A DNA stretch of 64,000 nucleotides. It comes from Natroniella sulfidigena. GTDB lineage: Bacteria; Bacillota; Halanaerobiia; Halobacteroidales; Halobacteroidaceae. The notes under the pieces are model-generated. The model made no database searches and was not told the DNA's origin. It worked only from the letters and a program-made list of their open reading frames with translations. This document shows, piece after piece, positions 12,170 through 60,520 of this stretch (position 1 is the stretch's first letter; every line of letters starts with the position of its first letter). The stretch is taken from positions 1 through 64,000 of the forward strand of contig NZ_JALKBY010000011.1 of NCBI RefSeq assembly GCF_023223645.1, read 5' to 3'. Both the position numbers and the translations under genes were made by a program.

Positions 12170-12325
12170 TTACAAAACAGCTTAAGTCTAAGGTTGAGGA
12201 AATGGTTTTTATTACGAAGGGTTTTTATAAACCCGAAGGTGAGGCTAAGCCAACCGTTAAAAGCATAAGGGTTTAGGTTTTACTTAAACTTAAACTTAGC
12301 CTTAAACTTAAGCTTGATATCAATA
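12170..12325 (+). repeat. short-word inverted repeat (CTTAAG/TTTAAG words)
   Basis: The left side has CTTAAGTCTAAGGTTGAGG and GTGAGGCTAAGCC. The right side has the reverse words CTTAAACTTAAACTTAGCC and CTTAAACTTAAG. The centre AAAAGCATAAGGGTTTAGG resembles the centre of the elements at 24.6 kb and 58.0 kb. A small GGGTTT/AAACCC hairpin is nested near 12219-12235. No ORF is seen here. Confidence 0.7.
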
Positions 12326-21635: not shown

Positions 21636-21699
21636 TGATTAGAGATTAGCAAAAATTAAATATTATGTTAGATGGGTGATTGATTATTTATTGGGGAAA

Positions 21700-21905
21700 A
21701 CCTACTAGATAATTAATTTAAAAGGGAAGTCTGCATGAGATTAAGGAGACTGGTCAGTTTCTTCTTGTGACAGCGTGGTCCCGCCACTGTAAACGATGGA
21801 ATTACTTCTTTTGGTTGCCACCTGATTATCAATTCAAATAATTGGGGAAGGCTGGAGAAGTTAAGTCGTAAGCCAGGAAACCTGCCTATTTAACGAGTAA
21901 CTTTT
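21700..21905 (+). promoter_or_regulatory. cobalamin riboswitch 1 (before bzaA-bzaB-cobT)
   Basis: Conserved cobalamin aptamer parts are present in order: AAAAGGGAAG, GGTCCCGCCACTGTAA, GGGGAAGG and the B12 box AAGCCAGGAAACCTGCC (21870-21886). This copy is compact, without the repeat inserts found in the other two. A strong terminator follows at 21927-21967. High cobalamin would end transcription before the lower-ligand operon. Confidence 0.95.
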
Positions 21906-21967: not shown

Positions 21968-21995
21968 TATTTAAAATACATAAGGAGGTATGATA

Positions 21996-23273
21996 ATGAC
22001 ACAATTATTGAAGGCTAAAGAAGGTATTATTACTCTAGCAATGGAGGAAGTAGCTGACAAAGAAGGTGTAACAGCAGATTTTATTAGACAGGAGGTAGCA
22101 GCAGGTAGGATAGTAATTCCTAAGAATAAAAATAGAGATACTGTAAGCCAAGGTTTTGGAAGTGGTTTAAAAACTAAGGTAAGTACTAGTGTAGGTCTCT
22201 ATGAAGATTATACAGATTTGGATACAGAAATGGCTAAGATTGATTTAGCTGTAGATTTGGGAACAGATGCAGTTATGGATTTGAGTAAGGATGGAGATAT
22301 AGATCAAGCTCGCCAAGAGATTTTAGCTAGGACTGAATTACCAGTAGGAACACTACCTATTTATCAAGTGGCTAAGGAGAGTGAGGAGAGGACAGGCTCA
22401 ATTTTAGAGATGAGTGTTGATGATATTTTTGAAATTGTGGAAAAGCAGGCAGCAGATGGTGTTGATTTTTTTGGGGTTCATGCTGGTTTGACAATGAAGA
22501 CTCTAGAAAGATTAAAAAGAGAAGGCAGGATTGAGGGGTTGGTTAGCCATGGGGGCCAAATTTTGGCAGGTTGGATGTTACATCATAATCAAGAGAATCC
22601 ATTTTATGAAGAGTACGATCGGTTATTAGAGATTGCTAAAAAATATGATGTAACGATTAGCTTAGCTGATACTTTTCGACCGGGAGCATTAGCTGATTCC
22701 TTAGATCGAGCTCAGGTACAGGAGTTAATTATTCTAGGAGAGTTGGTTAATAGAGGTCAGCAAGCTGGAGTACAGATGATGGTTAAAGGACCAGGACATG
22801 TACCATTAGATCAGGTTGAGAGTACAGTTCAATTACAAAAAGAGCTCTGCCATGGGGCACCGTATTTTGTCTTTGGCCCGTTAGTAACTGATCTGGCAAT
22901 AGGAGAGGATGATATTAATTCAGCGATTGGAGGAGCTGTTGCTGCTTCAGCAGGGGCTGACTTTTTATGTTATGTAACGCCTGTGGAGCATCTTGATTTT
23001 CCAACTACAGAAGATATTAAAGCTGGAGTAATGGCTGCTAAGATTGCTGCTCAAGTTGGAGATTTATCTAAAGGGCGAGAGGGTGCTTGGGAGCAGGAAG
23101 AGAAAATGGCTTATGCTAGAAAAAAATTAGATTGGGAAGCAGAGATAGAGTTGTCTTTAAATCCTGCAGAAGCAAGAAGGATGAGAGAGAAGAGAAATCC
23201 AAGTGATGGTGATGGCTGTGCTATGTGTGGAGAGTATTGTGCAATTAAAGTTGTTACTCAACATTTGAATTAG
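21996..23273 (+). CDS. bzaA: ThiC paralogue, 5-hydroxybenzimidazole synthase subunit BzaA-like
   Basis: 425 aa, homologous to ThiC, the radical SAM enzyme that rearranges aminoimidazole ribotide. Motifs GPGHVPLDQ (about 260-268) and YVTPVEHLDFP match the family. The C-terminal iron-sulfur cluster motif is CAMCGEYC. The context argues against thiamine synthesis: a cobalamin riboswitch upstream, a second ThiC-like gene and cobT downstream. In the known anaerobic pathway BzaA with BzaB makes 5-hydroxybenzimidazole for the cobamide lower ligand. AAGGAGG is 7 nt from ATG 21996; ATG 21990 is too close. Confidence 0.8.
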   Translation: MTQLLKAKEGIITLAMEEVADKEGVTADFIRQEVAAGRIVIPKNKNRDTVSQGFGSGLKTKVSTSVGLYEDYTDLDTEMAKIDLAVDLGTDAVMDLSKDGDIDQARQEILARTELPVGTLPIYQVAKESEERTGSILEMSVDDIFEIVEKQAADGVDFFGVHAGLTMKTLERLKREGRIEGLVSHGGQILAGWMLHHNQENPFYEEYDRLLEIAKKYDVTISLADTFRPGALADSLDRAQVQELIILGELVNRGQQAGVQMMVKGPGHVPLDQVESTVQLQKELCHGAPYFVFGPLVTDLAIGEDDINSAIGGAVAASAGADFLCYVTPVEHLDFPTTEDIKAGVMAAKIAAQVGDLSKGREGAWEQEEKMAYARKKLDWEAEIELSLNPAEARRMREKRNPSDGDGCAMCGEYCAIKVVTQHLN

Positions 23274-23275
23274 TA

Positions 23276-23316
23276 ACTGGTAATTAGTGATTAGTAATTA
23301 GTGACTGGTAATTAGA
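23276..23316 (+). repeat. tandem GTAATTA/GTGATTA words
   Basis: Directly after bzaA, words like GGTAATTAGTGATTAGTAATTAGTGACTGG repeat in tandem without a clear opposite arm. They match words inside riboswitches 2 and 3 and the gaps at 42.2, 45.7 and 49.7 kb. Confidence 0.6.
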
Positions 23317-23360
23317 AAAGAAATTAAAAGTTATTTTATACAATTAGGAGGGATAAAATT

Positions 23361-24632
23361 ATGACACAATTGATTAAAGCACGAGAAGGAATTATTACTA
23401 ATGAGATGGAAGTAGTAGCAGAGAATGAAGGAGTTAGTGCAGAAGAGATTAGAGAGAAGGTAGCTGAGGGATTAGTTGTAATTCCAAGGAATGTAAATAG
23501 AGCAAGAGATAATTATATGGGGATTGGGACAGGCTTACAGACTAAGGTTAATGCCAGTATGGGGGCTTCTAAGGATTATCCAGATCCAGAGATGGAAAAA
23601 ACAAAATTAAAAGCAGCTTTAGAAGCAGGAGCAGATGCAATTATGGATTTAAGTACAGGTGGAGATATAGATCAGATTAGGGAGAATACTTTAGAAATTT
23701 CAGAAGTACCTGTAGGAACGGTGCCGATTTATCAAGCAGGAATTAAAGGAATTGAAGAATATGGCTCAGTAGTAGAGATGAAAGCAGAGGATATCTTTGC
23801 TGAAATTGAGAGGCAAGCTAAGGCTGGGGTAGATTTTATGGCTATTCATTGTGGGATGACTTTAGAGGTATTGGAACGATTAAAAGAAGAAGGAAGAGTT
23901 ACTGATGTAGTCAGTCGTGGAGGGGGGTTTTTAACTGGTTGGATGTTACATCATAATCGGGAGAATCCTTTGTATACAGAGTATGATCGGGTTTTAGAGA
24001 TAGCTAAAGAGTATGATGTTACTTTGAGTTTGGGTGATGGAATTAGACCGGGGGCAGTTGTTGACTCAATGGATCGAGCTCAGATGCAAGGATTGTTGAT
24101 TACTGGTGAGTTAGTCCAACGGGCTAGAGAAGCTGGAGTGCAGGTAATGGTCGAAGGGCCAGGACATGTACCACTAGATCATATTGATACTACGATTCAG
24201 TTGCAAAAGGAGTTATGCCATCAAGCTCCATTCTTTATCTTAGGAATGCTAGTAACTGATATAGCTGCTGGTTATGATCATATAGTAGCAGCAATTGGAG
24301 GGGCAAAGGCAACGTGGGCTGGAGCTGATTTTGTCTGTTATGTAACTCCTGCTGAGCATTTAGGTCTGCCAGCACCAGAGGATATCAGAAAGGGAGTAAT
24401 GGCTGCTCGAATAGCTACCCATGCTGGAGATATTGCTAAAAGAGGTGAGCAGGCTAGTCGGTTAGATAAGCAGATGGCTCGAGCTAGGGTGAAGAGTGAT
24501 TGGGAAGAACAAGCTAGATTAGCAATTAATTCGGAGAAGGTGTTGAGTAGCAAGAAGGATGAGATTTCAAAGCAGAGAGTGATGGATCAAAAGGCTGAGC
24601 CAATGGAAATAGCGGCGGAATATATTGGGTAA
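23361..24632 (+). CDS. bzaB: ThiC paralogue BzaB-like, lacking the C-terminal cysteine motif
   Basis: 423 aa, clearly related to the preceding protein (shared TQLIKAREGIIT start, MDLSTGGDIDQIR, GWMLHHNRENPLY, GPGHVPLDH, YVTPAEHLGLPAPEDI). The C-terminal tail ends MEIAAEYIG and has no cysteine, so the cluster motif seen in BzaA and ThiC is missing. The other frames near the stop do not restore it. I infer a partner subunit working with BzaA. Good ribosome binding site AGGAGGGA. It may be mis-annotated as thiC. Confidence 0.75.
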   Translation: MTQLIKAREGIITNEMEVVAENEGVSAEEIREKVAEGLVVIPRNVNRARDNYMGIGTGLQTKVNASMGASKDYPDPEMEKTKLKAALEAGADAIMDLSTGGDIDQIRENTLEISEVPVGTVPIYQAGIKGIEEYGSVVEMKAEDIFAEIERQAKAGVDFMAIHCGMTLEVLERLKEEGRVTDVVSRGGGFLTGWMLHHNRENPLYTEYDRVLEIAKEYDVTLSLGDGIRPGAVVDSMDRAQMQGLLITGELVQRAREAGVQVMVEGPGHVPLDHIDTTIQLQKELCHQAPFFILGMLVTDIAAGYDHIVAAIGGAKATWAGADFVCYVTPAEHLGLPAPEDIRKGVMAARIATHAGDIAKRGEQASRLDKQMARARVKSDWEEQARLAINSEKVLSSKKDEISKQRVMDQKAEPMEIAAEYIG

Positions 24633-28169: not shown

Positions 28170-28292
28170 AAATAGAGAAAGATTTAACAATTGAATACGC
28201 TGGTGATTGGGTGCCCTTAGTTATGGCTAAGGGAGAATAGGGAATCAGGTGAGAATCCTGAGCGGGCCCGCCACTGTGATTAGCTATAAAAG

Positions 28293-28366
28293 CAATGAAT
28301 ATTGAATAATTAATAGTGAATAGTTGAAGTTCAAAGGCAAAATCAAAAACTATTAATTATTAATTG
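28293..28366 (+). repeat. repeat insert 1 inside riboswitch 2
   Basis: AATGAATATTGAATAATTAA with GTGAATAGTTG forms the left arm and AACTATTAATTATTAATTG the right arm, around CAAAGGCAAAATCAAA. The words are the same as in the tRNA spacers. It would fold as its own hairpin and so extend a peripheral stem. Confidence 0.75.
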
Positions 28367-28399
28367 CTACAAGACTTAGTAATACCACTTGGATTAACT

Positions 28400-28465
28400 G
28401 GTAACTAGTAGCTAGTGATTGGTAATTGGTAACTAATTACTAATCACAAATTACTAATTACTAGT
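28400..28465 (+). repeat. repeat insert 2 inside riboswitch 2
   Basis: GGTAACTAGTAGCTAGTGAT words are followed by the inverse AACTAATTACTAATCAC and ATTACTAATTACTAGT. These match the GTAATTA/GTGATTA words at 23.3, 42.2, 45.7 and 49.7 kb. Confidence 0.75.
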
Positions 28466-28580
28466 CCCCAGGGAAGGTGAAGTTCTTACAGCTATGAGTC
28501 AGGAGACCTGCCTAATCATTGAGCCTACTATGCTTCGTTAGCAAGGAAGGTAGGTAATTAGTGATGTTAACTAATTAACT

Positions 28581-28609
28581 CCAATCCTTTTTATCGGGAT
28601 TGGTTTTTT
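28581..28609 (+). terminator. terminator of riboswitch 2
   Basis: CCAATCC (28581-28587) pairs with GGATTGG (28597-28603), followed by six T. Its place after the aptamer makes it the likely expression platform. Confidence 0.8.
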
Positions 28610-28634
28610 AGTTATTAATCTTTGATCTAATTAC

Positions 28635-28661
28635 TCTAATCTTGCGGGTCGAGGTTAGGGT
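28635..28661 (+). terminator. second terminator-like hairpin after riboswitch 2
   Basis: CTAATCT pairs with AGGTTAG (one G-U) and is followed by GGTTTTATTTTTT. The stem is weaker than its neighbours. Confidence 0.45.
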
Positions 28662-28712
28662 TTTATTTTTTATAGTAAGTATCTCTAATCGTGTTAATCC
28701 CATTAATTCCCT

Positions 28713-28750
28713 GTTCCCAATTCTAAATTTAGGATTGGGAACTTTTTTTA
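28713..28750 (+). terminator. third terminator before the aldo/keto reductase
   Basis: GTTCCCAATTCT pairs with AGGATTGGGAAC around AAATTT, followed by seven T. It makes read-through from riboswitch 2 into the reductase unlikely. Confidence 0.8.
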
Positions 28751-28865
28751 TTGGAAGGGAAATTAATTATTATAGAGAATTATAAGTATTGTAAGCAATA
28801 AAGATAAGATGAAAAAAGATAATTTGATTTAACTTAAAACAAGCAAAGAAGGAGAATGGTTAAAA

Positions 28866-29978
28866 TTGATTTATAAAGAATATGGTAAGACCGGAAAGGA
28901 AGTATCTGCTTTAGGGTTTGGTGGTATGAGATTTGATATTGAAAATAATAGTATTGAAGAGAATGCTCAGCTTGTAAGGAGAGCATCTGAACTAGGAATT
29001 AACTATTTTGATACAGCGCATAGTTATTGTAAAGATCAAAGTGAGATTATTTATGGTGAGGCATTTAAGGAGATGCCTAATCCTTTTTATGTTTCAACAA
29101 AGAGTATGGTAACAAAAGATCCAACTGCCGATGATGTTCGCAGGAGGGTTGAAACTTCATTACAGAGAATGGGATTAGAGAAGATTGATTTTTTTCATAT
29201 GTGGTGTATTTTAGATCTGGATATGTATCAAGAGGTGATTAAAAAAGGTGGTCCTTACGAAGGTGCACTAAAATTAAAGGAAGAAGGATTAATTGATCAT
29301 ATCTGTTTTTCAACCCATGCTAATGGTGATGAAATTGAACAAATAATCAATGATGATCTATTTGAAGGGGTTATATTAGGTTATAATGCTACTAACTTTG
29401 CTTATCGAGAGCAAGGAGTTAAGGCTGCTTATCAGAATAATTTAGGGGTAGTAACTATGAATCCACTTGGCGGAGGAGTAATACCTCAAAATCCTGATTT
29501 TTATTCATTTATCAAGGATAATCCTAATGATACAGTAGCTCAGGCAGCGTTAAAGTTTAATATAGCTCATGAAGAGATTACGATTGCTTTGGCAGGGATT
29601 AATAATATAGAAGAGCTAGAAGAGAATGTAGCAGCAGTCAACTCTGCTGAGGGTTTATCAAATGAAAAGATAGAAGAGATTAAAGATCATCTAAAAGAGG
29701 AGTTAGATGCTTTATGCACAGGTTGTGGTTATTGTCTTGGGTGTCCTGAAGATATATATATCCCGACTTATATGATGGCTTATAATGAGGCGATTATTCG
29801 TGATGATCAAGAAATTATTGCTGATAAAATAGATGGTGCTCGAAAGCATGGCCCATTAACTAATAGACCAGAAAGTAAAGCTAACAGCTGTATTGAATGT
29901 GGATTATGTGAGTCGCAATGTACTCAACATTTACCAATTATTGAGCGGCTGAAGGAGTTTATAGGGTTAGAAGAATAA
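28866..29978 (+). CDS. aldo/keto reductase with C-terminal 4Fe-4S domain
   Basis: 370 aa. An N-terminal AKR barrel has YGKTGKEVSALGFGGMRFD, the catalytic YFDTAHSYC region (Asp about 49, Tyr about 54) and FHMWCILD. A C-terminal ferredoxin-like part has CTGCGYCLGCP (about 290-300) and CIECGLCESQC (about 341-351), enough for iron-sulfur clusters. This domain pair is common in anaerobes; substrates are usually unknown. TTG start, GGAG 11 nt upstream. Its link to the upstream cobalamin riboswitch is doubtful. Confidence 0.88.
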   Translation: MIYKEYGKTGKEVSALGFGGMRFDIENNSIEENAQLVRRASELGINYFDTAHSYCKDQSEIIYGEAFKEMPNPFYVSTKSMVTKDPTADDVRRRVETSLQRMGLEKIDFFHMWCILDLDMYQEVIKKGGPYEGALKLKEEGLIDHICFSTHANGDEIEQIINDDLFEGVILGYNATNFAYREQGVKAAYQNNLGVVTMNPLGGGVIPQNPDFYSFIKDNPNDTVAQAALKFNIAHEEITIALAGINNIEELEENVAAVNSAEGLSNEKIEEIKDHLKEELDALCTGCGYCLGCPEDIYIPTYMMAYNEAIIRDDQEIIADKIDGARKHGPLTNRPESKANSCIECGLCESQCTQHLPIIERLKEFIGLEE

Positions 29979-30071
29979 TTATTAACTACTGACTAGTAAA
30001 AAAGGAGTAAAAGAAGGTTGAAAAGAATTAGGTTAGATAAGGGGTTATTATTTTTAAAAGTTTAGCTCTGG

Positions 30072-30100
30072 TTGATTAAATCTTTGATTTTGTATATAAT
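30072..30100 (+). promoter_or_regulatory. sigma-A-type promoter for mscS-nikR
   Basis: TTGATT (30072-30077), a 17-nt spacer and TATAAT (30095-30100), about 60 nt before the mscS start. This is the clearest housekeeping promoter in the window. Confidence 0.7.
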
Positions 30101-30158
30101 AATCAGGTAATCAACTTATAATAGTAAAGAGAAGTTTGAAGGGGTGTAGTGAATAAAA

Positions 30159-31043
30159 ATGGAGTCATTTGATTTTAATGACCCTGTAGTTCAAAAGATA
30201 TTATTTTCAGTTGGAGCTATAGTCTTTAATTACTTTATCACTTTTTGGGTGATAAGATTTATTAATAAGAAGGTGGATGATTTCAAGAGGCGTCATCGCA
30301 GTAGACGCTATACTTATTATGTAGCTACCTTAATAACTTTTGTGATTTTAATCTTAATTTGGGCAGATATGACAGGTACAATTACTACATATTTGGGTTT
30401 TTTATCAGCTGGATTAGCTTTGGCGTTGCATGATGTGATCTTAAATCTAGCTGGTTGGGTCTTAATTATGCTACGGCGTCCTTTTGGGCTTGGTGATCGA
30501 ATTGAATGGGATGATGTTAAAGGTGATGTAATTGATATTCGGGTTTTTTATACATCTTTATTGGAGATAGGAAACTGGGTTGACTCTGATCAGAGTACAG
30601 GTCGGATAGTACATATTCCAAACAGTAATATTTTTCGTGAATCTCTATTTAATTATACACGTGGCTTTGAATATTTGTGGAATGAGATTAAGTTTTTAGT
30701 TACCTATGAAAGTGATTGGGAGAAGGCTAAGGAGATTATTTTGGAAACTGCTCAGCAAGAAGGGGAAAAGATTCAAGATCTAGCAAAAAGAAAGATTAAA
30801 TTGATGTCTAAACGTTATATGATTAAATATAGTAAATTTTCTCCGATTGTCTATTTAGATATTGCAGATAGTGGGGTAGAGATAACCTTGCGTTATCTAA
30901 CGACAGCTAGGCGAAGAAGATTAGTTGAGAGTCGAATTAGTGAGATTATATTGAAAAAGTTTGCACAAGAATCGGAGATTGATTTTGCTTATCCAACGAC
31001 CCGGTTTTATACTACAGAAAATAGGGAGGCTAAAAATGTCTGA
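30159..31043 (+). CDS. MscS-family mechanosensitive channel
   Basis: 294 aa. Three membrane segments lie in the first 100 residues. The third is the pore helix, rich in Gly and Ala (LGFLSAGLALALHDVILNLA, about 78-97). The beta domain follows with RRPFGLGDRIEWDDVKGDV (about 105-123), then VHIPNSNIFRESLFNYTRG. It should release solutes on hypo-osmotic shock, a sensible need for a halophile. The stop overlaps the nikR start by 8 nt. Confidence 0.9.
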   Translation: MESFDFNDPVVQKILFSVGAIVFNYFITFWVIRFINKKVDDFKRRHRSRRYTYYVATLITFVILILIWADMTGTITTYLGFLSAGLALALHDVILNLAGWVLIMLRRPFGLGDRIEWDDVKGDVIDIRVFYTSLLEIGNWVDSDQSTGRIVHIPNSNIFRESLFNYTRGFEYLWNEIKFLVTYESDWEKAKEIILETAQQEGEKIQDLAKRKIKLMSKRYMIKYSKFSPIVYLDIADSGVEITLRYLTTARRRRLVESRISEIILKKFAQESEIDFAYPTTRFYTTENREAKNV

Positions 31044-31449
31044 ATTAATTAGGTTTGGAGTATCGATTGATAAAGAGTTATTAAAGAAGTTTGATCAGTT
31101 GATTGAAGATGGTTATACAAATCGTTCTGAAGCAATTCGTGATCTGATTCGAGATAGAATTGTAGAAGAGAAGTGCCAAGATGAAGAGGAAAATGTTGTA
31201 GGAACTTTAACCTTGTTTTATGACCACCATCAACGAGGAATGACTGAGAAGATGATAGAAATCCAGCATGATTATCATTCTTTATTTAAGTCTAATTTAC
31301 ATCTACATTTATCGCATCATATCTGTTTAGAGGTGATTATAGTAGAAGGTAAAAGAGAGAAGTTAAATGAAGTGACTCAGAAATTGGTTGGATTAAAGGG
31401 AGTTAAGCATGGTAAATTGACTGTTTCTGCAGTTGATGAATCTTTGTGA
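31036..31449 (+). CDS. nikR: nickel-responsive regulator NikR
   Basis: 137 aa. The N-terminal ribbon-helix-helix DNA-binding domain is SELIRFGVSIDKELLKKFD. The C-terminal ACT-like domain carries the nickel ligands in IQHDYHS and HLHLSHHICLEV (His, His, His and Cys of the classical site). ATG 31036 follows AGGGAGG and overlaps the end of mscS. A gene list with cobalt and tungstate uptake nearby suggests metal homeostasis. Which operon it controls is not shown; I saw no clear NikR operator. Confidence 0.92.
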   Translation: MSELIRFGVSIDKELLKKFDQLIEDGYTNRSEAIRDLIRDRIVEEKCQDEEENVVGTLTLFYDHHQRGMTEKMIEIQHDYHSLFKSNLHLHLSHHICLEVIIVEGKREKLNEVTQKLVGLKGVKHGKLTVSAVDESL

Positions 31450-31539
31450 TTAAGTCTAAGTCTAAGTAAGAGCTAAGACCTTATGTTTCTAGTGGTTGAC
31501 TTAATCTTATATTACAATTATGTGTAACTTTTACTTTGA

Positions 31540-31730
31540 ACCATGAGGGGCATTTCTCGTTCGGGAAGATTTTTTCTGAGTTTCTAAGACTCACCTTCAC
31601 TCAAATAAGAGTATGAATTAGCTAATTTTAAAGAAGAAAATTAGCTAATTCATACTCTTATTTGATTTTCGGTTCGTCAAGAAACTAAACGAAAAAATCT
31701 AGATGTCACTGCGAAACACCCCTCATGGTA
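31540..31730. mobile_element. MITE-like long hairpin element, copy A
   Basis: The whole 191 nt folds on itself. Outer arms ACCATGAGGGG and CCCCTCATGGT pair, the middle arms AGATTTTTTCTGAGTTTCT and GAAACTAAACGAAAAAATCT pair with small gaps, and the inner arm is a perfect 28-bp repeat (31602-31629 with 31637-31664, loop AAAGAAG). Copy B at 43462-43643 shares the middle arms and ATGAG ends but has a different inner stem. No ORF is present; it could be a non-autonomous transposon or a structured RNA. Confidence 0.65.
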
Positions 31731-31867
31731 AATTTTTAGAGTGTAATGTTTTGATTTATCTGAAGAATTTATGTGATTACGGTGAGAGTGGAGGAGTTTA
31801 TTTATTTTTTAATATTTTAAGTAAGAAAAATTTAATTTTGGTGATTGCAAAAATTAAAATTCTTATT

Positions 31868-31960
31868 GATTTTTTGGCTACTTTTTTATCAAGTGTCCTG
31901 AAGGGCTGATAAGCCCTGAGGAAATGCCCTTGGGGTGAAAAAAGGTAGCACGGAAGAAAG
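31868..31960 (+). ncRNA. candidate structured RNA of unknown class
   Basis: GCTACTTTTTT (31877-31887) pairs with AAAAAAGGTAGC (31938-31949) with one bulged G. This encloses a GC-rich hairpin CCT..AGGGCT-GATA-AGCCCT.AGG (31897-31921) and CCCTTGGGG. The GC content and nesting stand out in an AT-rich 880-bp gap without credible ORFs (31450-32328). I cannot match it to a riboswitch class. Confidence 0.35.
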
Positions 31961-32055
31961 TTTGGTTTTTAACTTTTCTGTAAAATGGTTTTGATTTTAA
32001 GGTTTAAATTGTAATTTTTTAATTTTAAAAGTTAAGCTATTTATCAGTTAAGTTG

Positions 32056-32096
32056 AAAGCTCCAATCTTCTATTAATAGAAGATTGGAGCTTTTTG
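32056..32096. terminator. 38-nt perfect palindrome, likely terminator
   Basis: 32056-32074 is the exact reverse complement of 32075-32093 (AAAGCTCCAATCTTCTATT), with centre ATTAAT and TTTTTG after it. It is the same loopless style as the palindromes at 611, 61183 and 63144. Confidence 0.75.
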
Positions 32097-32146
32097 TATT
32101 GAGATAGATCAAATTAAGACAAAGTGTAAAAAATTAAATTTCAAGA

Positions 32147-32175
32147 AGGACTTTTCTAAAAGAAGAAGAATTACT
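32147..32175 (+). promoter_or_regulatory. sigma-H-like promoter, first of tandem pair
   Basis: AGGACTTTT at 32147 and GAATTACT at 32168, 21 nt apart. Matches the sigma-H pattern in both elements. Confidence 0.55.
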
Positions 32176-32248
32176 ATTTTAGTAGCATAAAAAAATAAAA
32201 AGTAACACAAGGAAAGAGGTTAAAGTGTAAAAAAATTAAATTTTAAGA

Positions 32249-32277
32249 AGGACTTTTCTAGAGAAAGAAGAATTACT
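32249..32277 (+). promoter_or_regulatory. sigma-H-like promoter, second of tandem pair
   Basis: AGGACTTTT at 32249 and GAATTACT at 32270, 21 nt apart, in the second copy of the duplicated leader. Transcription would start about 45 nt before the gene's start codon. Confidence 0.55.
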
Positions 32278-32328
32278 GTATTAGAGTGACACAAAAAATA
32301 AAAAAATAACACAAAAGGAGAATTTAAA

Positions 32329-33174
32329 ATGAAATTTTCAGGAACAGAACTTAGGAGATTTGCAGTGGTAGCTTTTGTAGCATTATTAGTCTTCAGTTTG
32401 ACTGGAGGAGAGGCGTTGGCCCATGAAATAGTTTTGGATTTCCCACAACAAGTGGAGAGTGGAGAGGAAGTGGAGATAGAATTTTTCTTTGGACATCATC
32501 CTGATGTTGCTGATGTTGAACATTCTTTCTTTGCTACTTTAGAAGATAATGCGGAGTTAATGGTAATCAATGAAGAAGGTGAATTAACAGAGTTAGATTT
32601 TAATTTGGTAGAAGATAGCTATAAAGCTAGCTTTACTCCAGATGGAGAAGGGCTTTACTGGGTGGTTGCTATTGGACCTCGAGGTGTAGTTGATAGAAGT
32701 GATCGAGATCCATCTGGTGGAATGCAGTTGCGTTATTATGATGCTAAAGCTCCTTTATTAGTTGGAAATGTAGATCAAATCACAGCTTTTGAAACTCCAT
32801 TAGGGGTAGAGTTTATTGGTGAAATTGATTCACTGACTGTTGGAGAAGAGATTAGTTTGGAATTAGATTATGATGGCGAGTTAGTTAGTAATCAAGAGGT
32901 AACTATTGTTGGCCCTAATGATAGAGTAGAGCAAGTGACAACTAATGATGAAGGGGTTTTAAACTTTACATTTCCTGAAGAAGGAAGATGGTTTATCCAT
33001 GTTGGAAATGTGACTGATTTGGAGCGACAGGGAGAAGATTATGCAGAGGCTAGTACGGAGATAGTCGAGTATGATCGTGTTAGGTATAATTCAGCTTTAT
33101 ATTTAGAGGTAGAAGAAAGGCTAGGATTTTTTCAAAGATTATTTAGATTCTTCCGAAGAATATTTGGTTGGTAA
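32329..33174 (+). CDS. secreted DUF4198-type (NikK/CbiK-like) metal-uptake protein
   Basis: 281 aa. A signal peptide probably ends at ALA, leaving mature N-terminus HEIVLDFPQQ. Two beta-rich halves follow, the second with LLVGNVDQITAF. The C-terminus (FFQRLFRFFRRIFGW) is amphipathic and basic, without the FMN domain of the paralogue at 37016. DUF4198 proteins accompany nickel and cobalt ECF transporters and are thought to bind metal outside the cell. RBS AAGGAG. It stands alone, between a sigma-H promoter pair and a terminator. Confidence 0.75.
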   Translation: MKFSGTELRRFAVVAFVALLVFSLTGGEALAHEIVLDFPQQVESGEEVEIEFFFGHHPDVADVEHSFFATLEDNAELMVINEEGELTELDFNLVEDSYKASFTPDGEGLYWVVAIGPRGVVDRSDRDPSGGMQLRYYDAKAPLLVGNVDQITAFETPLGVEFIGEIDSLTVGEEISLELDYDGELVSNQEVTIVGPNDRVEQVTTNDEGVLNFTFPEEGRWFIHVGNVTDLERQGEDYAEASTEIVEYDRVRYNSALYLEVEERLGFFQRLFRFFRRIFGW

Positions 33175-33246
33175 TTTAGAATTAGAATTCAGAAAATTTG
33201 CGATGATATTAAACTAAAAATTTTTAAAGTAGTATAATGGCTAGTT

Positions 33247-33280
33247 ATCCTCAATCTTTGCTACGAAGGTTGAGGATTTT
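33247..33280 (+). terminator. terminator after the DUF4198 gene
   Basis: ATCCTCAATCTT pairs with AAGGTTGAGGAT (one G-U), followed by TTTTATTTT. The same stem sequence with small changes recurs at 36265 and 36886. Confidence 0.8.
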
Positions 33281-33292
33281 ATTTTGGGTTAG

Positions 33293-33385
33293 GAAATTAT
33301 GCTTTTTAGAGGTTATGGATAACCTTTGTCAGTTTGTATTTGTTGGTTTTACTTAAACTCAATCTTAGACTTAAACTGAGTTGCC
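33293..33385 (+). repeat. dispersed intergenic repeat, copy 1
   Basis: Nearly the same sequence occurs at about 61240-61332: shared GGAAATTAT, CTTTTTAGAG, GGTTTTACTTAAACTCAATC and TTAGACTTAAACT. The right end consists of the TTAAAC words used by the inverted word repeats. Confidence 0.7.
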
Positions 33386-33400
33386 GGAGGCAACTTTTTT
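33379..33400 (+). terminator. terminator-like hairpin AGTTGCC/GGCAACT
   Basis: AGTTGCC-GGA-GGCAACT followed by six T, 200 nt before tupA. The GC-rich stem and T-tract fit an intrinsic terminator. Confidence 0.7.
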
Positions 33401-33501
33401 ATTGATATTATAAAATTTTCGGGAAATGAATTCCAGAGTTTAAAGGAGAAAAACAGGACATTTTGTAGCTTGCCATTTGCTCGATTGATTGCTGATTTAG
33501 T

Positions 33502-33530
33502 TTGAAGTATATTTTATTTTATGATAATAT
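33502..33530 (+). promoter_or_regulatory. sigma-A-type promoter for tupABC
   Basis: TTGAAG (33502-33507), a 17-nt spacer and TAATAT (33525-33530), about 70 nt before tupA. Confidence 0.55.
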
Positions 33531-33601
33531 TTAGGTAATGTAAATTTTTAGAGACGTTATGTCATGATTGATATAATGAAAAAATATGGAGGCTTACGGA
33601 A

Positions 33602-34432
33602 ATGAAAAGATCATTTTTAATAGCTTTAGTCTTAATTTTAACCTTTGTATTTATAGGTTGTACAAGAGAAGATACAACTGAAAGAATAAGACTAGCTACT
33701 ACAACAAGTACGGATGATTCAGGATTATTAGAAGAGTTATTACCTATTTTTGAAAAGGAAAGTGATTATAATGTTGAAGTGATTGCTGTAGGTACAGGAC
33801 AAGCTTTAGAGATTGGTCGTAGAGGAGATGTGGATCTTTTATTGGTTCATGCTCTGGAGTTAGAGCATGAATTTGTTGCTCAAGGATATGGAACAGAACG
33901 CTTTCCTGTCATGTATAATGATTTTGTGATTGTTGGCCCGGATGATGATCCAGCAGATATTAAGGAAGAAAGTAATTTGGGGGACAGTTTAAAAGCAGTT
34001 TATCAAGCAGGTTTAGCTGGAGATGCTACTTTTGCTTCACGAGGAGATGATTCAGGAACACATGCTAAGGAAATTAATCTGTGGAGTGAATATGAAATAG
34101 ATAGAGAAGGTGATTGGTATAAGTCATTAGGTCAGGGGATGGGTGATACTTTAATTACAGCTAATGAGATGCAAAGCTACACTCTAGCTGATAGAGGTAC
34201 ATATTTATCTATGAAGGATTACTTACCTAACTTAGCAATTCTTGTTGAAGGTGATCAAGAATTATTTAATCCTTATGGAATAATTCCTATTAACCCAGAT
34301 CAACATGATGTTAATTATGAAAGAGCAGAGAAACTAGTAGAGTTTTTTGTTAGATCTGATATTCAAGAACAGATAGGCGAGTTTGGTAAAGATAAATTTG
34401 GTCAGCCATTATTCTTTCCAGATGCTGACTAA
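33602..34432 (+). CDS. tupA: tungstate ABC transporter, substrate-binding lipoprotein TupA
   Basis: 276 aa. A signal peptide with lipobox FIGC is followed by the oxyanion-binding start LATTTSTDDSGLLEEL (about 31-46), in which consecutive Thr and Ser residues bind tungstate. VGTGQALEIGRRGDVDLLLVHA (about 62-83), the FASRGDDSGTHAKE segment and late LADRGTYLS fit TupA. The tupA-tupB-tupC order and a following ModE-like regulator support tungstate rather than phosphate or sulfate. Confidence 0.92.
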   Translation: MKRSFLIALVLILTFVFIGCTREDTTERIRLATTTSTDDSGLLEELLPIFEKESDYNVEVIAVGTGQALEIGRRGDVDLLLVHALELEHEFVAQGYGTERFPVMYNDFVIVGPDDDPADIKEESNLGDSLKAVYQAGLAGDATFASRGDDSGTHAKEINLWSEYEIDREGDWYKSLGQGMGDTLITANEMQSYTLADRGTYLSMKDYLPNLAILVEGDQELFNPYGIIPINPDQHDVNYERAEKLVEFFVRSDIQEQIGEFGKDKFGQPLFFPDAD

Positions 34433-34464
34433 GCTTAATTAAATCTATTAACTGGAGGTTTAAC

Positions 34465-35166
34465 ATGGATCTTTTAATTGAGGGATTACAAGAAGCTATC
34501 TCTTTGCTGATAAGTTTTGACCCACGAGTAATTAATATAATTCTAACCTCCCTACAGGTAACAGGAACGGCACTCTTTTTTGCAACTTTAATTGGAATTC
34601 CTCTAGGAGCATTTTTAGGCTTGAGTGATTTTCCAGGTAAGTCGATCATTGTAGCAGTACTTTATACAGGGATGGGTTTTCCCCCTGTAGCAATTGGTTT
34701 ATTAGTCTTTATTACTTTTTCTTCAGCAGGGCCTTTTGGTTTTCTTAATTGGCTCTTTACTACTCGAGCTATGATTGTTGCTCAAATAATTATATCTTTT
34801 CCTTTAGTTGCTGGCTTTACTATGACGGCAGTAAGTAGTGTTGATAGTAATTTATTATTACAGCTTAAAGCTCTAGGGGCTACTAAAAGGCAGATTGTAT
34901 TGGCCATTTTAAAGGAATCTAGATTAGGGGTTTTAGTTTCGATTATTGCTGGTTTTGGGGCAATTATATCAGAAGTAGGAGCAGTAATGATGGTTGGTGG
35001 AAATATTGAAAGGAGTACTAGGGTATTAACAACAGCAATTGTTTTGGAGACTAGAAAAGGAAACTTTGGTCTTGCAATCTCATTTGGAATTATTCTATTA
35101 GCAATTACATTTATAGTTAACTTCTGCATGTCTAATCTGCCAGGGAGAGGAGGAAGAAGAGATTAA
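34465..35166 (+). CDS. tupB: tungstate ABC transporter permease TupB
   Basis: 233 aa with five or six membrane segments. The permease-ATPase coupling motif is LKALGATKRQIVLAILKESRLGV (about 133-155), a variant of the EAA loop. ATG start after TGGAGG. The stop TAA (35164-35166) overlaps the proposed ATT start of tupC. Confidence 0.92.
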   Translation: MDLLIEGLQEAISLLISFDPRVINIILTSLQVTGTALFFATLIGIPLGAFLGLSDFPGKSIIVAVLYTGMGFPPVAIGLLVFITFSSAGPFGFLNWLFTTRAMIVAQIIISFPLVAGFTMTAVSSVDSNLLLQLKALGATKRQIVLAILKESRLGVLVSIIAGFGAIISEVGAVMMVGGNIERSTRVLTTAIVLETRKGNFGLAISFGIILLAITFIVNFCMSNLPGRGGRRD

Positions 35167-35893
35167 AGATCTAGTATATCATTTAAATAATCTATTAAAA
35201 ACTTATCAAGGGCGCAATGTTTTAGATATCGATCAATTATCAATTCATAGGGGAGAGGTATTTTGTTTAGTAGGGCCAAGTGGGGCAGGAAAGAGTACTT
35301 TATTAAGGCTCTTGAATTTTTTAGAAGCACCTGATCACGGAGAGATTGAATTTTTAGATAAGGTCTATAATCAATCTAAACAACCTTCTTTAGATATTAA
35401 ACGTAAGGTAACCACAGTTTTTCAAAGACCAGCTTTAATGAGCAGCTCAGTAGTTGAAAATATTGCTTATCCTTTAAAGATAAGGGGGAAAGATGTTAAT
35501 TACGAGCAGATTGATCAACTCTTAGTTAAGCTTGGCCTAGAGGAGTTGAAGAAGCAACGGGCAGATAAACTTTCGGGTGGAGAAGCACAGCGGGTTTCGT
35601 TAGCAAGAGCTTTAATCTTTAAACCTGAAGTATTATTACTTGATGAACCGACTTCTAATCTTGATCCAGCGAATATAAAGATTATTGAAGATATAATTAC
35701 AGATTATATTAAAAATAATAAGACTACTATTGTTATGGTAACCCATAATCTATTCCAAGCTAAAAGATTAGCAGATAGGGTTGGATTATTGCATGATGGA
35801 GATTTTATAGAAGTCAAAGAGAAAGAGGAATTTTTTAATAATCCAGAGCAAGAATTAACTAAAGATTATTTAGCAGGGAGATTAATCTGTTAA
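35162..35893 (+). CDS. tupC: tungstate ABC transporter ATPase TupC, non-canonical ATT start
   Basis: 243 aa ABC ATPase. Walker A is VGPSGAGKSTLLR (about 39-51), signature LSGGEAQRVSLARAL, Walker B VLLLDEPTSNLD, and the switch His is in MVTHN. The frame is open from 35117 and the conserved N-terminal strand KDLVYHLNNLLKTYQGRNVL must be included. No ATG, GTG or TTG exists in frame before 35312, which lies after Walker A. ATT at 35162 is 8 nt after a perfect AGGAGG (35148-35153) and overlaps the tupB stop, so ATT is the likely start, as in infC. A start at 35312 would remove the ATP site. Confidence 0.85.
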   Translation: MKDLVYHLNNLLKTYQGRNVLDIDQLSIHRGEVFCLVGPSGAGKSTLLRLLNFLEAPDHGEIEFLDKVYNQSKQPSLDIKRKVTTVFQRPALMSSSVVENIAYPLKIRGKDVNYEQIDQLLVKLGLEELKKQRADKLSGGEAQRVSLARALIFKPEVLLLDEPTSNLDPANIKIIEDIITDYIKNNKTTIVMVTHNLFQAKRLADRVGLLHDGDFIEVKEKEEFFNNPEQELTKDYLAGRLIC

Positions 35894-35918
35894 GACTGAA
35901 TTTTAAAAGGAGAGAGTT

Positions 35919-36254
35919 ATGAAATTAAATTATAAAATTTGGTTAGAAAATGAGCAAGGTGAGCGGGTGATGGGCAAAGGTTTATTAGCCCTATTGAGCT
36001 TTATTGACCAGACAGGTTCTATTAATAAAGCTGCTAAAGAATTGGAGATGTCATATCGTGCTGCTTGGGGTAAATTAAATAAAGCAGAAGAAGAGTTAGG
36101 GTATGATTTAATTGAAAGAAGGTCAGGTGGAAGAGGAGGCGGTGGTAGTCGATTAACGGAGAAGGGGAATAATTTGCTTGATAAGTTTAACAAGTTCAGT
36201 AAAAAGGTTGATCAAGAATTAAATATAATGTTTTTGGATTTTTTTGATAGGTAA
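35919..36254 (+). CDS. ModE-like molybdate/tungstate-responsive HTH regulator
   Basis: 111 aa single winged-helix domain of the ModE N-terminal type: GLLALLSFIDQTGSINKAAKELEMSYRAAWGKL (about 22-54) and a wing with RSGGRGGGGSRLT. The oxyanion-binding C-terminal (TOBE) domains of full ModE are missing, so sensing may need another partner. It lies 25 nt after tupC and probably regulates the tup operon. Good AGGAGAG ribosome binding site. Confidence 0.85.
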   Translation: MKLNYKIWLENEQGERVMGKGLLALLSFIDQTGSINKAAKELEMSYRAAWGKLNKAEEELGYDLIERRSGGRGGGGSRLTEKGNNLLDKFNKFSKKVDQELNIMFLDFFDR

Positions 36255-36264
36255 TCAGCTATTT

Positions 36265-36299
36265 ATCCTCAATTTTTTGTGAATATTGAGGATTTTTTT
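36265..36299 (+). terminator. terminator after the tup operon
   Basis: ATCCTCAAT pairs with ATTGAGGAT, followed by TTTTTTT. Related in sequence to the stems at 33247 and 36886. Confidence 0.85.
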
Positions 36300-36310
36300 C
36301 TTTTTAGAGG

Positions 36311-36339
36311 AGGAAAAAAGATAGAAATAGAGAATATAT
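36311..36339 (+). promoter_or_regulatory. sigma-H-like promoter, distal, before riboswitch 3
   Basis: AGGAAAAAA at 36311 and GAATATAT at 36332, 21 nt apart. The downstream TAGTATTAGTAGCAC resembles TATTTTAGTAGCATAA after the promoter at 32147. Confidence 0.55.
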
Positions 36340-36460
36340 AGTATTAGTAGCACAAATATAATATTTGTAATACCAAGAAAAGGAGCAGGAAAGGGAATCA
36401 ATCAGGTTCAAGAAATTGGGCTCGGAAGTGAGAAAATTATAAAAAATTTAATTTTGATGC

Positions 36461-36489
36461 AGGAAAAAATTGAGTTATGGTGAATAATT
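36461..36489 (+). promoter_or_regulatory. sigma-H-like promoter, proximal, before riboswitch 3
   Basis: AGGAAAAAA at 36461 and GAATAATT at 36482, 21 nt apart. Same position relative to the aptamer as the promoter at 28141 before riboswitch 2. Confidence 0.6.
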
Positions 36490-36603
36490 AATTTAACAAT
36501 AGAATACGCTGGTGATTGGGTGCCTTTAGTTTAACAGCTAAAGGAGAATAGGGAATCAGGTGTAAATCCTGAGCGGGCCCGCCACTGTAACTAGCTATAA
36601 AAG

Positions 36604-36678
36604 CAGTGAATAATGAATAGTTAATAGTGAATAGTTGAAGTTCAAAGGCAAAATCAAAAGCTATTAATTATTGACTGC
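36604..36678 (+). repeat. repeat insert 1 inside riboswitch 3
   Basis: GTGAATAATGAATAGTTAAT and TAGTGAATAGTTGAAG make the left arm, CTATTAATTATTGACTG the right arm. Closely similar to the insert at 28293 in riboswitch 2. Confidence 0.75.
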
Positions 36679-36708
36679 TAAAAGGACTTAGTAAAACCAC
36701 TTGGAGTA

Positions 36709-36771
36709 ACTAGTAGCTAGTGATTGGTAATTGATAACTAATTACTAATCACAAATTACTACTTACTAACC
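36709..36771 (+). repeat. repeat insert 2 inside riboswitch 3
   Basis: ACTAGTAGCTAGTGATTGGT words and the inverse ACTAATTACTAATCAC. Closely similar to the insert at 28400, with small changes in the words. Confidence 0.75.
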
Positions 36772-36885
36772 TCCAGGGAAGGTGAAGTTCTTACAGCTAG
36801 GAGTCAGGAGACCTGCCTAATCATTGAGCCTACTTGATCTTCGATGGTAAGGGGGAGTAGGTAATTAGCCTTAGTATGTCTAATT

Positions 36886-36921
36886 ATCCTCAATCTTTGC
36901 TGCGAAGATTGAGGATTTTTT
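36886..36921 (+). terminator. terminator of riboswitch 3
   Basis: ATCCTCAATCTT (36886-36897) pairs with AAGATTGAGGAT (36905-36916), followed by a T-tract. It is the expression platform 95 nt before the first cobalt-uptake gene. Confidence 0.9.
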
Positions 36922-40734: not shown

Positions 40735-40912
40735 TAGTTGACGGTTGACAGTGTACAGTTTACAGTTAAAGATCAAAAGCTTAGAACCTCTAAAAGGTCT
40801 TATGCTTACATACAGGTTTAGAGTGGTTTTGAATTTAGAGTTTTAACTGTCAACCGTCAACTGTTCACTGTCAACTGATATTTAGTGGCAAAATGCCACT
40901 AAATATCAATTA
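40735..40912 (+). repeat. inverted word repeat (GTTGACAGT words) plus capped hairpin
   Basis: The left arm GTTGACGGTTGACAGTGTAC with AGTTTACAGTT is answered by AACTGTCAACCGTCAACTGT and TCACTGTCAACTG. The centre contains AAAAGCTTAGAACC. A second small hairpin ATATTTAGTGGC/GCCACTAAATAT follows at 40880-40908. No ORF. Confidence 0.8.
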
Positions 40913-40930
40913 AACTTAAGGGGGAAAATT

Positions 40931-41296
40931 ATGAAAACTGGAATTATCGTATTAGGACATGGAAGTAGAGCTACGGAAGCTAGTCAAGTTTTTGCAGAAA
41001 TTGTTGATAAACTTAGAGAAAAGGTAGATTATGATTTAGTAGAGGGAGCAGCGATGGAGTTAGCTGAGCCTAGTTTACAAGATAGTGTAGCAAAGATTAT
41101 TAATGAAGGAGCGGAGAAGGTAGTTATCGTTCCTTTATTCTTATTCCCAGGGATACATATTCAAGAGGATATTCCTAATTTAATCGAAGAGTTAGAAGCA
41201 GAGTATCCAGAGGTTGAGTTTAAGTTTGGAAGAAATCTCGGTGCTGATGATAAGATAGCGGATATTTTGATTGAACGAATTGAGGAAGTTAATTAA
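40931..41296 (+). CDS. cbiX: sirohydrochlorin cobaltochelatase CbiX, short form
   Basis: 121 aa CbiXS type, which works as a dimer. It inserts cobalt into sirohydrochlorin, the entry to the anaerobic cobamide pathway. Catalytic His is in LGHGSR (about 8-13) and a second His in FPGIHIQEDIP (about 75-85). Short ATP-independent class II chelatase. Standard start after GGGGGAAA. Placed directly after cobalt import genes, which fits supply of the metal. Confidence 0.92.
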   Translation: MKTGIIVLGHGSRATEASQVFAEIVDKLREKVDYDLVEGAAMELAEPSLQDSVAKIINEGAEKVVIVPLFLFPGIHIQEDIPNLIEELEAEYPEVEFKFGRNLGADDKIADILIERIEEVN

Positions 41297-41297
41297 A

Positions 41298-41515
41298 ATA
41301 TTGTGTCACTTTCGTGTCACAATATTGAGTTGACAGTTTACGGTTTACAGTTTACAGTTAAAAATTAAAACCTTAAAGACTTAAGACTATTAAATACCCA
41401 TTTAATCATAGTTTTAGAGTGGTTTTGATTTTAATGTTTTAATGCTCTTAACTGTCAACCGTCAACTGTTCATTGTCAACTGATATAAAGTGAAACTTTA
41501 TATCAATTAAATTTA
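41298..41515 (+). repeat. inverted word repeat with two capped hairpins
   Basis: CAATATTGTG/CACAATATTG caps at 41301-41334. Left arm GTTGACAGTTTACGGTTTAC, right arm AACTGTCAACCGTCAACTGT, ending in hairpin ATATAAAGTG/CACTTTATAT-like at 41481. It is the same design as the copies at 40735 and 60257. Confidence 0.8.
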
Positions 41516-41533
41516 ACAGGGATGGTGAAAATA

Positions 41534-43461: not shown

Positions 43462-43643
43462 GATATGAGAGGTTTTTTCGTTTTGAAAGATTTTTTCTAA
43501 ACTTCTAAGACTCATCTGCGAATAAATAAGAGCAAGCTAATTTAAAATAGGAAATTAGCTAAATCAAGCTCTTATTTATTTCTCAATTCGTCAAGAAGTT
43601 AAACGAAAAAATCTAGATACCACTATAAAAAACTCTCATGACA
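43462..43643. mobile_element. MITE-like long hairpin element, copy B
   Basis: The outer ends ATGAGAG and CTCTCAT pair. The middle arms AAAGATTTTTTCTAAACTTC and GAAGTTAAACGAAAAAATCT pair and match those of copy A, as do CTAAGACTCA and ATTCGTCAAGAA. The inner arm AATAAATAAGAGCAAGCTAA with its imperfect inverse differs from copy A. Flanking sequence GAGTGTATAGT also resembles copy A's GAGTGTAATG. It lies between cbiD and cbiE. No ORF. Confidence 0.65.
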
Positions 43644-60256: not shown

Positions 60257-60520
60257 TTACAATATTGTGCCACAATATTGAGTTGACAGTTTACGGTTGA
60301 CAGTTTACAGTTAAGATCAAAATCTTAAAATCTTAAGAACTATAAAAAGCCTTAAAATTATAGCTTTAGATTGGTTTGGGGTTTAAGTTTTAAATGGTTT
60401 TAACTGTCAACCGTCAACTGTTCACTGTAAACTGATATAAAGTGGCACTTTGCCACTTTATATCAATTAAGCTTTTTTAAGATTTTTAACTATACACTAT
60501 TAATTATTAACTATTAACTG
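60257..60520 (+). repeat. inverted word repeat with caps before cobC
   Basis: CAATATTGTG/CACAATATTG cap (60262-60282), arms GTTGACAGTTTACGGTTGAC and ACTGTCAACCGTCAACTG, a hairpin ATATAAAGTGGC/GCCACTTTATAT (60436-60463), then ACTATTAATTATTAACTATT words. It is the largest copy of the family in this window. Confidence 0.8.

Follow-up and report, generated by a model that had tools for sequence, protein, structure and literature searches.

Dispersed heptamer repeats as predicted hairpins in the P7/P8 junction and the P11 loop of paralogous cobalamin riboswitches of Natroniella sulfidigena

Two of three cobalamin riboswitches encoded in a 64,000-nt stretch of Natroniella sulfidigena DNA (contig NZ_JALKBY010000011.1; the whole stretch is further referred to as the window) carry self-complementary repeats at the same two places. 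This raises the question of how the repeats came to occupy matching positions in two RNAs, and whether they are targeted, useful or simply tolerated there.

The riboswitches and the position of the inserts

Three aptamers on the forward strand of the window match positions 1–189 of the RF00174 model: Cbl1 (21657–21903, 69.4 bits), Cbl2 (28192–28529, 73.0 bits) and Cbl3 (36501–36834, 70.7 bits). These full-length matches, which for Cbl2 and Cbl3 exceed the gathering score of 31.5 bits, bear out the statement of an earlier note on this DNA that the conserved core is intact in all three. The same note called the first riboswitch compact; Cbl1 indeed lacks repeat words, but it is 247 nt long and hence not minimal. 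In Cbl2 and Cbl3 the P1–P7 core and the B12 box are aligned to the covariance model, and a long stretch of the P7–P11 arm is left unaligned. Judged by their sequences, Cbl2 and Cbl3 are paralogs of each other and belong to the cobalamin riboswitches of class I (AdoCbl type). Each is followed on the same strand by an intrinsic terminator-like hairpin (28581–28603 and 36886–36916, respectively), the second one preceding an operon that includes cbiM (Pfam). A fourth riboswitch of the same genome, the C30 copy, is located on a separate contig and contains both inserts. Cbl1 lies upstream of two adjacent ThiC-like genes (21990–24632; the ThiC family was assigned with Pfam, run on the first gene), and a gene for a CobT-type phosphoribosyltransferase is found further down. 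The ThiC-like pair is possibly bzaA/bzaB-like, acting on the lower ligand of B12.

We placed the inserts on the stems with the conserved boxes, located by reading, as landmarks. Insert 1 (forward strand, 28291–28368 in Cbl2 and 36602–36679 in Cbl3, the two being 92% identical) is a heptamer-word hairpin of the AGCA...TGCT type. It starts 3' of the P7 5' strand (TAGC, pairing with GCTA) and ends 5' of the P8 5' strand (GGACTT, pairing with AAGTTC or AAGTCC). Since it is thus located between the 5' strands of P7 and P8, we assign it to the P7/P8 junction (J7/8). Insert 2 (forward strand, 28393–28469 in Cbl2 and 36705–36774 in Cbl3) is flanked by CCACTTGG and AGGGAAGG and occupies the P11 terminal loop, on the distal side of the J10/11 elements. 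The earlier note had placed the inserts within a few bases of these coordinates, and the check that it named, an RF00174 fit with stem mapping, leaves the core helices aligned and the inserts in J7/8 and the P11 loop. Both inserts consist of 7-nt words and are among the strongest lag-7 segments in the window.

In class-I cobalamin riboswitches the P8-P10-P11 domain is optional, and variable insertions form stem-loops (Barrick and Breaker 2007, PMC2258182); the Escherichia coli btuB riboswitch has extra stems P9 and P12 (PMC5359240). Hence, insert 2 sits in an arm known to vary, and these members of the same aptamer family accept stem-loop insertions outside the core. Unlike the known insertions, those described here belong to a dispersed heptamer family, and many paralogs have them at two sites.

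Dispersed repeat families and other structured RNAs

The genome was searched with patterns and BLAST. Insert 1 had 77 matches and insert 2 had 57 (E≤10), the best ones outside cobalamin riboswitches having E-values of 2e-9 and 1e-14, respectively. These matches agree with the earlier proposal that the inserts come from families of word repeats, which are dispersed in the genome and in this case sit in loops of an RNA. The insert-1 unit was counted with an end-anchored 28-nt pattern, allowing up to three mismatches and taking the reversed pattern as a control. This genome contains 67 copies (control, 0), its congener G009 contains 106, and the other eleven genomes of the order contain 0–7 (control, 0–3). 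The commonest tandem period is 7 nt both in the window and in G009.

Dispersed copies of the insert families are mostly intergenic, and a few overlap the ends of predicted genes. Spacers between tRNA genes are among their locations: a two-armed hairpin of the insert-1 type occupies 162–275 on the forward strand, outside riboswitches, and another one fills the spacer at 353–456. Likewise, spacers in other tRNA clusters of this genome (L013, L015, L027 and L032) hold hairpins of this family. The window also contains repeats of other kinds. A further heptamer family (AACTGTCAACCGTCAACTG words) with hairpin-like arm pairs is present at 40835–41522, 60288–60474 and other intergenic sites, and arrays with a six-base period (CTTAGACTTAAACT words) at 12261, 52860 and 61270 form a separate family. 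A long, nearly perfect palindrome (20 counted pairs, a loop of 7) is located at 31588–31678, and a part of it recurs at 43541–43633.

The words differ between genomes. The dialect AATTGACA is widespread in the order and nearly absent from G001 and G002, and the riboswitches examined from these two genomes have a compact J7/8. Among the matches listed, AGCATT is present in 43 of 93 dispersed copies in G009 vs 2 of 36 here. Concerted evolution of the riboswitch inserts with the dispersed repeats of each species was considered and rejected, as the inserts mostly ignore the species dialect.

The earlier note also suggested that the repeats tolerate functional RNA loops as targets. RNase P RNA of this genome is 369 nt long vs 367 positions in the model and is not expanded; tmRNA is 363 nt long vs 374 positions; the SAM and lysine riboswitches found in the genome are of normal length. 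These lengths speak against a general invasion of structured RNAs. In 46 scanned loci with dispersed repeats the only Rfam RNAs containing words were cobalamin riboswitches. T-box leaders are 115–294 nt long, and no clear word insert was seen in four of the longer ones that we read. Given the normal RNase P RNA and tmRNA and the 46 loci otherwise free of words in Rfam RNAs, the suggestion is not sustained for structured RNA loops at large.

Descent, exchange and length variation of the inserts

Cbl2 and Cbl3 are about 90% identical across the aptamer, inserts included, and diverge beyond it. Because the identity is maintained throughout, the inserts of Cbl2 and Cbl3 are not independent insertions; we rejected independent insertion into two riboswitches as the main account, and the separate targeting suggested by the earlier note gives way to paralogs with inherited or exchanged inserts. 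The coincidence of the two places in two riboswitches thus seems to reflect mostly common descent. Insert 1 of the C30 copy is 98% identical to that of Cbl2 over 66 nt, and the pair of inserts is present in three of the four copies in this genome and in the majority of those in the sister species. Among ten riboswitches of the sister species G009, nine have a word hairpin or a word array in J7/8 and seven have an insert in P11. Two sister-species copies have short P11 loops, ATATTTCAATATCT and ATATTTCAATATTT, and represent natural empty sites. On the core tree these two empty copies group together (support 98/92); the tree is compatible with one gain of insert 2 or with several.

Comparison by segments yields a mosaic. 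The core of the C30 copy is closest to its ortholog G9_C95 (92%), whereas its insert 1 is closest to that of Cbl2 (90% vs 71% to G9_C95). Such mosaic segments suggest recombination between riboswitch copies.

The length of J7/8 is graded. Riboswitches of other genera have either nothing in this junction or hairpins of 17, 21, 31, about 60 and up to about 80 nt, with mostly AGCA/TGCT-like ends. In the sister-species copy C51a the junction is a homogeneous AATGAAC array. This series suggests growth and shrinkage by whole heptamers, for which slippage would be a plausible cause. One riboswitch of G009 (L096:2028–2318) combines tandem AAAACTTAAT copies with a homogeneous AATGAAC array in J7/8 and scores low with RF00174 (39 bits); possibly, it is a decaying copy.

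The graded lengths bear on a possible origin by transposition, with the repeats being MITE- or palindrome-like elements, mobile but non-autonomous, and each of the two sites having received a complete unit. Dozens of dispersed copies exist, and when copies of the insert-1 type are aligned by their outer ends, they share AAAA-AGCA(A/G)T followed by GTGAATA-type words and are of similar unit length. Yet many copies have only one arm, the number and sequence of words vary in heptamer steps, and no target duplication was seen by eye at filled P11 loops. We therefore regard transposition of whole units as rather improbable.

Decay of the insert-bearing copies into pseudo-riboswitches, in which repeats pile up without constraint, is the least credible of the explanations considered. 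Two observations would fit it. The gene after Cbl2, an aldo/keto reductase, starts 337 nt away and is not an obvious B12 target. Further, an expression platform of a cobalamin riboswitch without an aptamer is present at 33236–33283; it is nearly identical to the platform after G9_C24b, resembles that after Cbl3, and is probably a deletion scar, which suggests that riboswitches are subject to deletion here. On the other hand, core segments are 86–98% identical among the closest copies vs insert-2 identities down to 66–78% in the C30/C95/C51c group, RF00174 scores are well over the cutoff, terminators follow the aptamers, and Cbl3 precedes the operon with cbiM.

Predicted folding and the preferred explanation

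The claim of the earlier note that the inserts lengthen peripheral parts as hairpins of their own is corroborated by predicted folds, RNAalifold and partition functions. Insert 2 of Cbl2 has a folding z-score of about −8 relative to mononucleotide shuffles. In the RNAalifold consensus of ten copies both inserts close as hairpins; 96% of insert cells are paired. Partition functions of ten whole aptamers give about 2–10 expected pairs of the native inserts with the core or with each other vs 15–32 for dinucleotide-shuffled inserts; in part, this insulation follows from the inserts being inverted repeats. Native arms form better duplexes than swapped arms by predicted energy (0 of 20000 permutations for insert 1, p=0.002 for insert 2). 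Pairs changed on both sides number 6 in the inserts vs 3.0 expected, a modest excess reached in 7 of 500 shuffles; insert 1 taken by itself gives no significant result. The correlation of the arms could also come from templated mutation between them, without selection. Two copies of insert 1, G9_C51a and G9_C86b, do not fold into a good hairpin, which counts against strict selection for closure.

The co-varying arms are one argument for the inserts being under selection for an added function, such as tuning of the aptamer through the stability of the P7–P11 arm, the kinetics of folding or the half-life of the RNA at high salt. The presence of inserts in three of four copies here and of the J7/8 insert in nine of ten copies in the sister species speaks for it as well, and the P10–P11 region of the btuB riboswitch makes AdoCbl-sensitive contacts (PMC5359240). 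However, the length and words of the inserts vary among copies, copies lacking insert 2 coexist with filled ones, insert 2 is distal to the J10/11 elements, and the same words occupy intergenic regions and tRNA spacers. An added function is therefore unlikely in our opinion. The earlier note had left the choice between tolerance and function open; tolerance seems a better reading than a specific added function, given that insert lengths vary, copies free of insert 2 coexist with filled ones and the sequence is not conserved.

The explanation that we consider probable is that permissive loops hold slippage-prone repeats, kept as insulated hairpins and spread by duplication and recombination of riboswitches as tolerated passengers. 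Self-complementary heptamer repeats of the dispersed families would have come to fill J7/8 and the terminal loop of P11, both of which lie outside the binding core, before the split of the two species of the genus; insert 2 perhaps arose repeatedly or moved between copies by recombination. The inserts would have been carried along when the riboswitch, a segment of roughly 370 nt, was duplicated, and then exchanged between copies. The arrays presumably lengthen and shorten by slippage. A copy of an insert may be kept only if its arms pair with each other locally and stay clear of the core, and the inserts may have persisted because they are mostly self-folding. With the insert closed, the switch would still fold, bind cobalamin and control the terminator.

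A very unlikely reading makes the hairpins a shared handle, to which, for instance, a single nuclease or RNA-binding protein would attach, and which would join cobalamin riboswitches, tRNA spacers and mRNA leaders post-transcriptionally. In its weaker form, an older AGCA...TGCT hairpin of the riboswitch J7/8 would have seeded the dispersed family.

The literature search, of incomplete coverage, yielded no earlier report of such repeats in a riboswitch or in this order. The closest precedents appear to be heptamer repeats in the RNase P RNA and the tRNA-Leu intron of cyanobacteria and palindromes of Rickettsia. In cyanobacteria, the P6b stem of the tRNA-Leu intron is built by heptanucleotide repeats on both strands, its length shifts in 7-nt steps, pairing is kept while the words differ, and the repeat classes are TDNGATT and NNTGAGT (PMC4476775). 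As in our case, seven-nucleotide words form a peripheral stem of a structured RNA; the host there is a cyanobacterial group I intron that senses no ligand. The words seem to differ from ours, and we claim no shared family. Heterocystous cyanobacteria have been described as carrying STRR repeats in their RNase P RNA (Vioque 1997, as cited in PMC2858038). From that secondary account, a functional RNA gene there likewise contains short tandem repeats that belong to a dispersed family, and the inserts share with STRRs the seven-nucleotide tandem period and a dispersed, mainly intergenic, multicopy occurrence; the RNA and the phylum are different, and RNase P RNA is not expanded here. Rickettsia palindromic elements reside in tmRNA and RNase P RNA and are thought to be neutral (reviewed in PMC2229807). 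They, too, are self-complementary dispersed repeats within conserved RNA genes; however, they are palindromes of 105–146 bp without heptamer structure and are not found in riboswitches. Intergenic heptamer repeats, with slippage as the proposed origin, are known from several phyla: TAACTGA (PMC4679880) and GGGAATC/GGGGATT (PMC4692102). The heptamer unit and intergenic dispersal are common to these and to our repeats, whereas the degenerate words described here form two-armed hairpins and occupy an aptamer.

A repeat family thus resides inside a ligand-sensing RNA, at two sites and in many paralogs, and apparently does not break it. With the natural siblings free of insert 2, it becomes testable which loops of a riboswitch can vary freely and whether regulation is tuned by the growth of the repeats. 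RNA stems made of heptamers, so far seen in ribozymes and introns of cyanobacteria, would then also occur in riboswitches of Bacillota.
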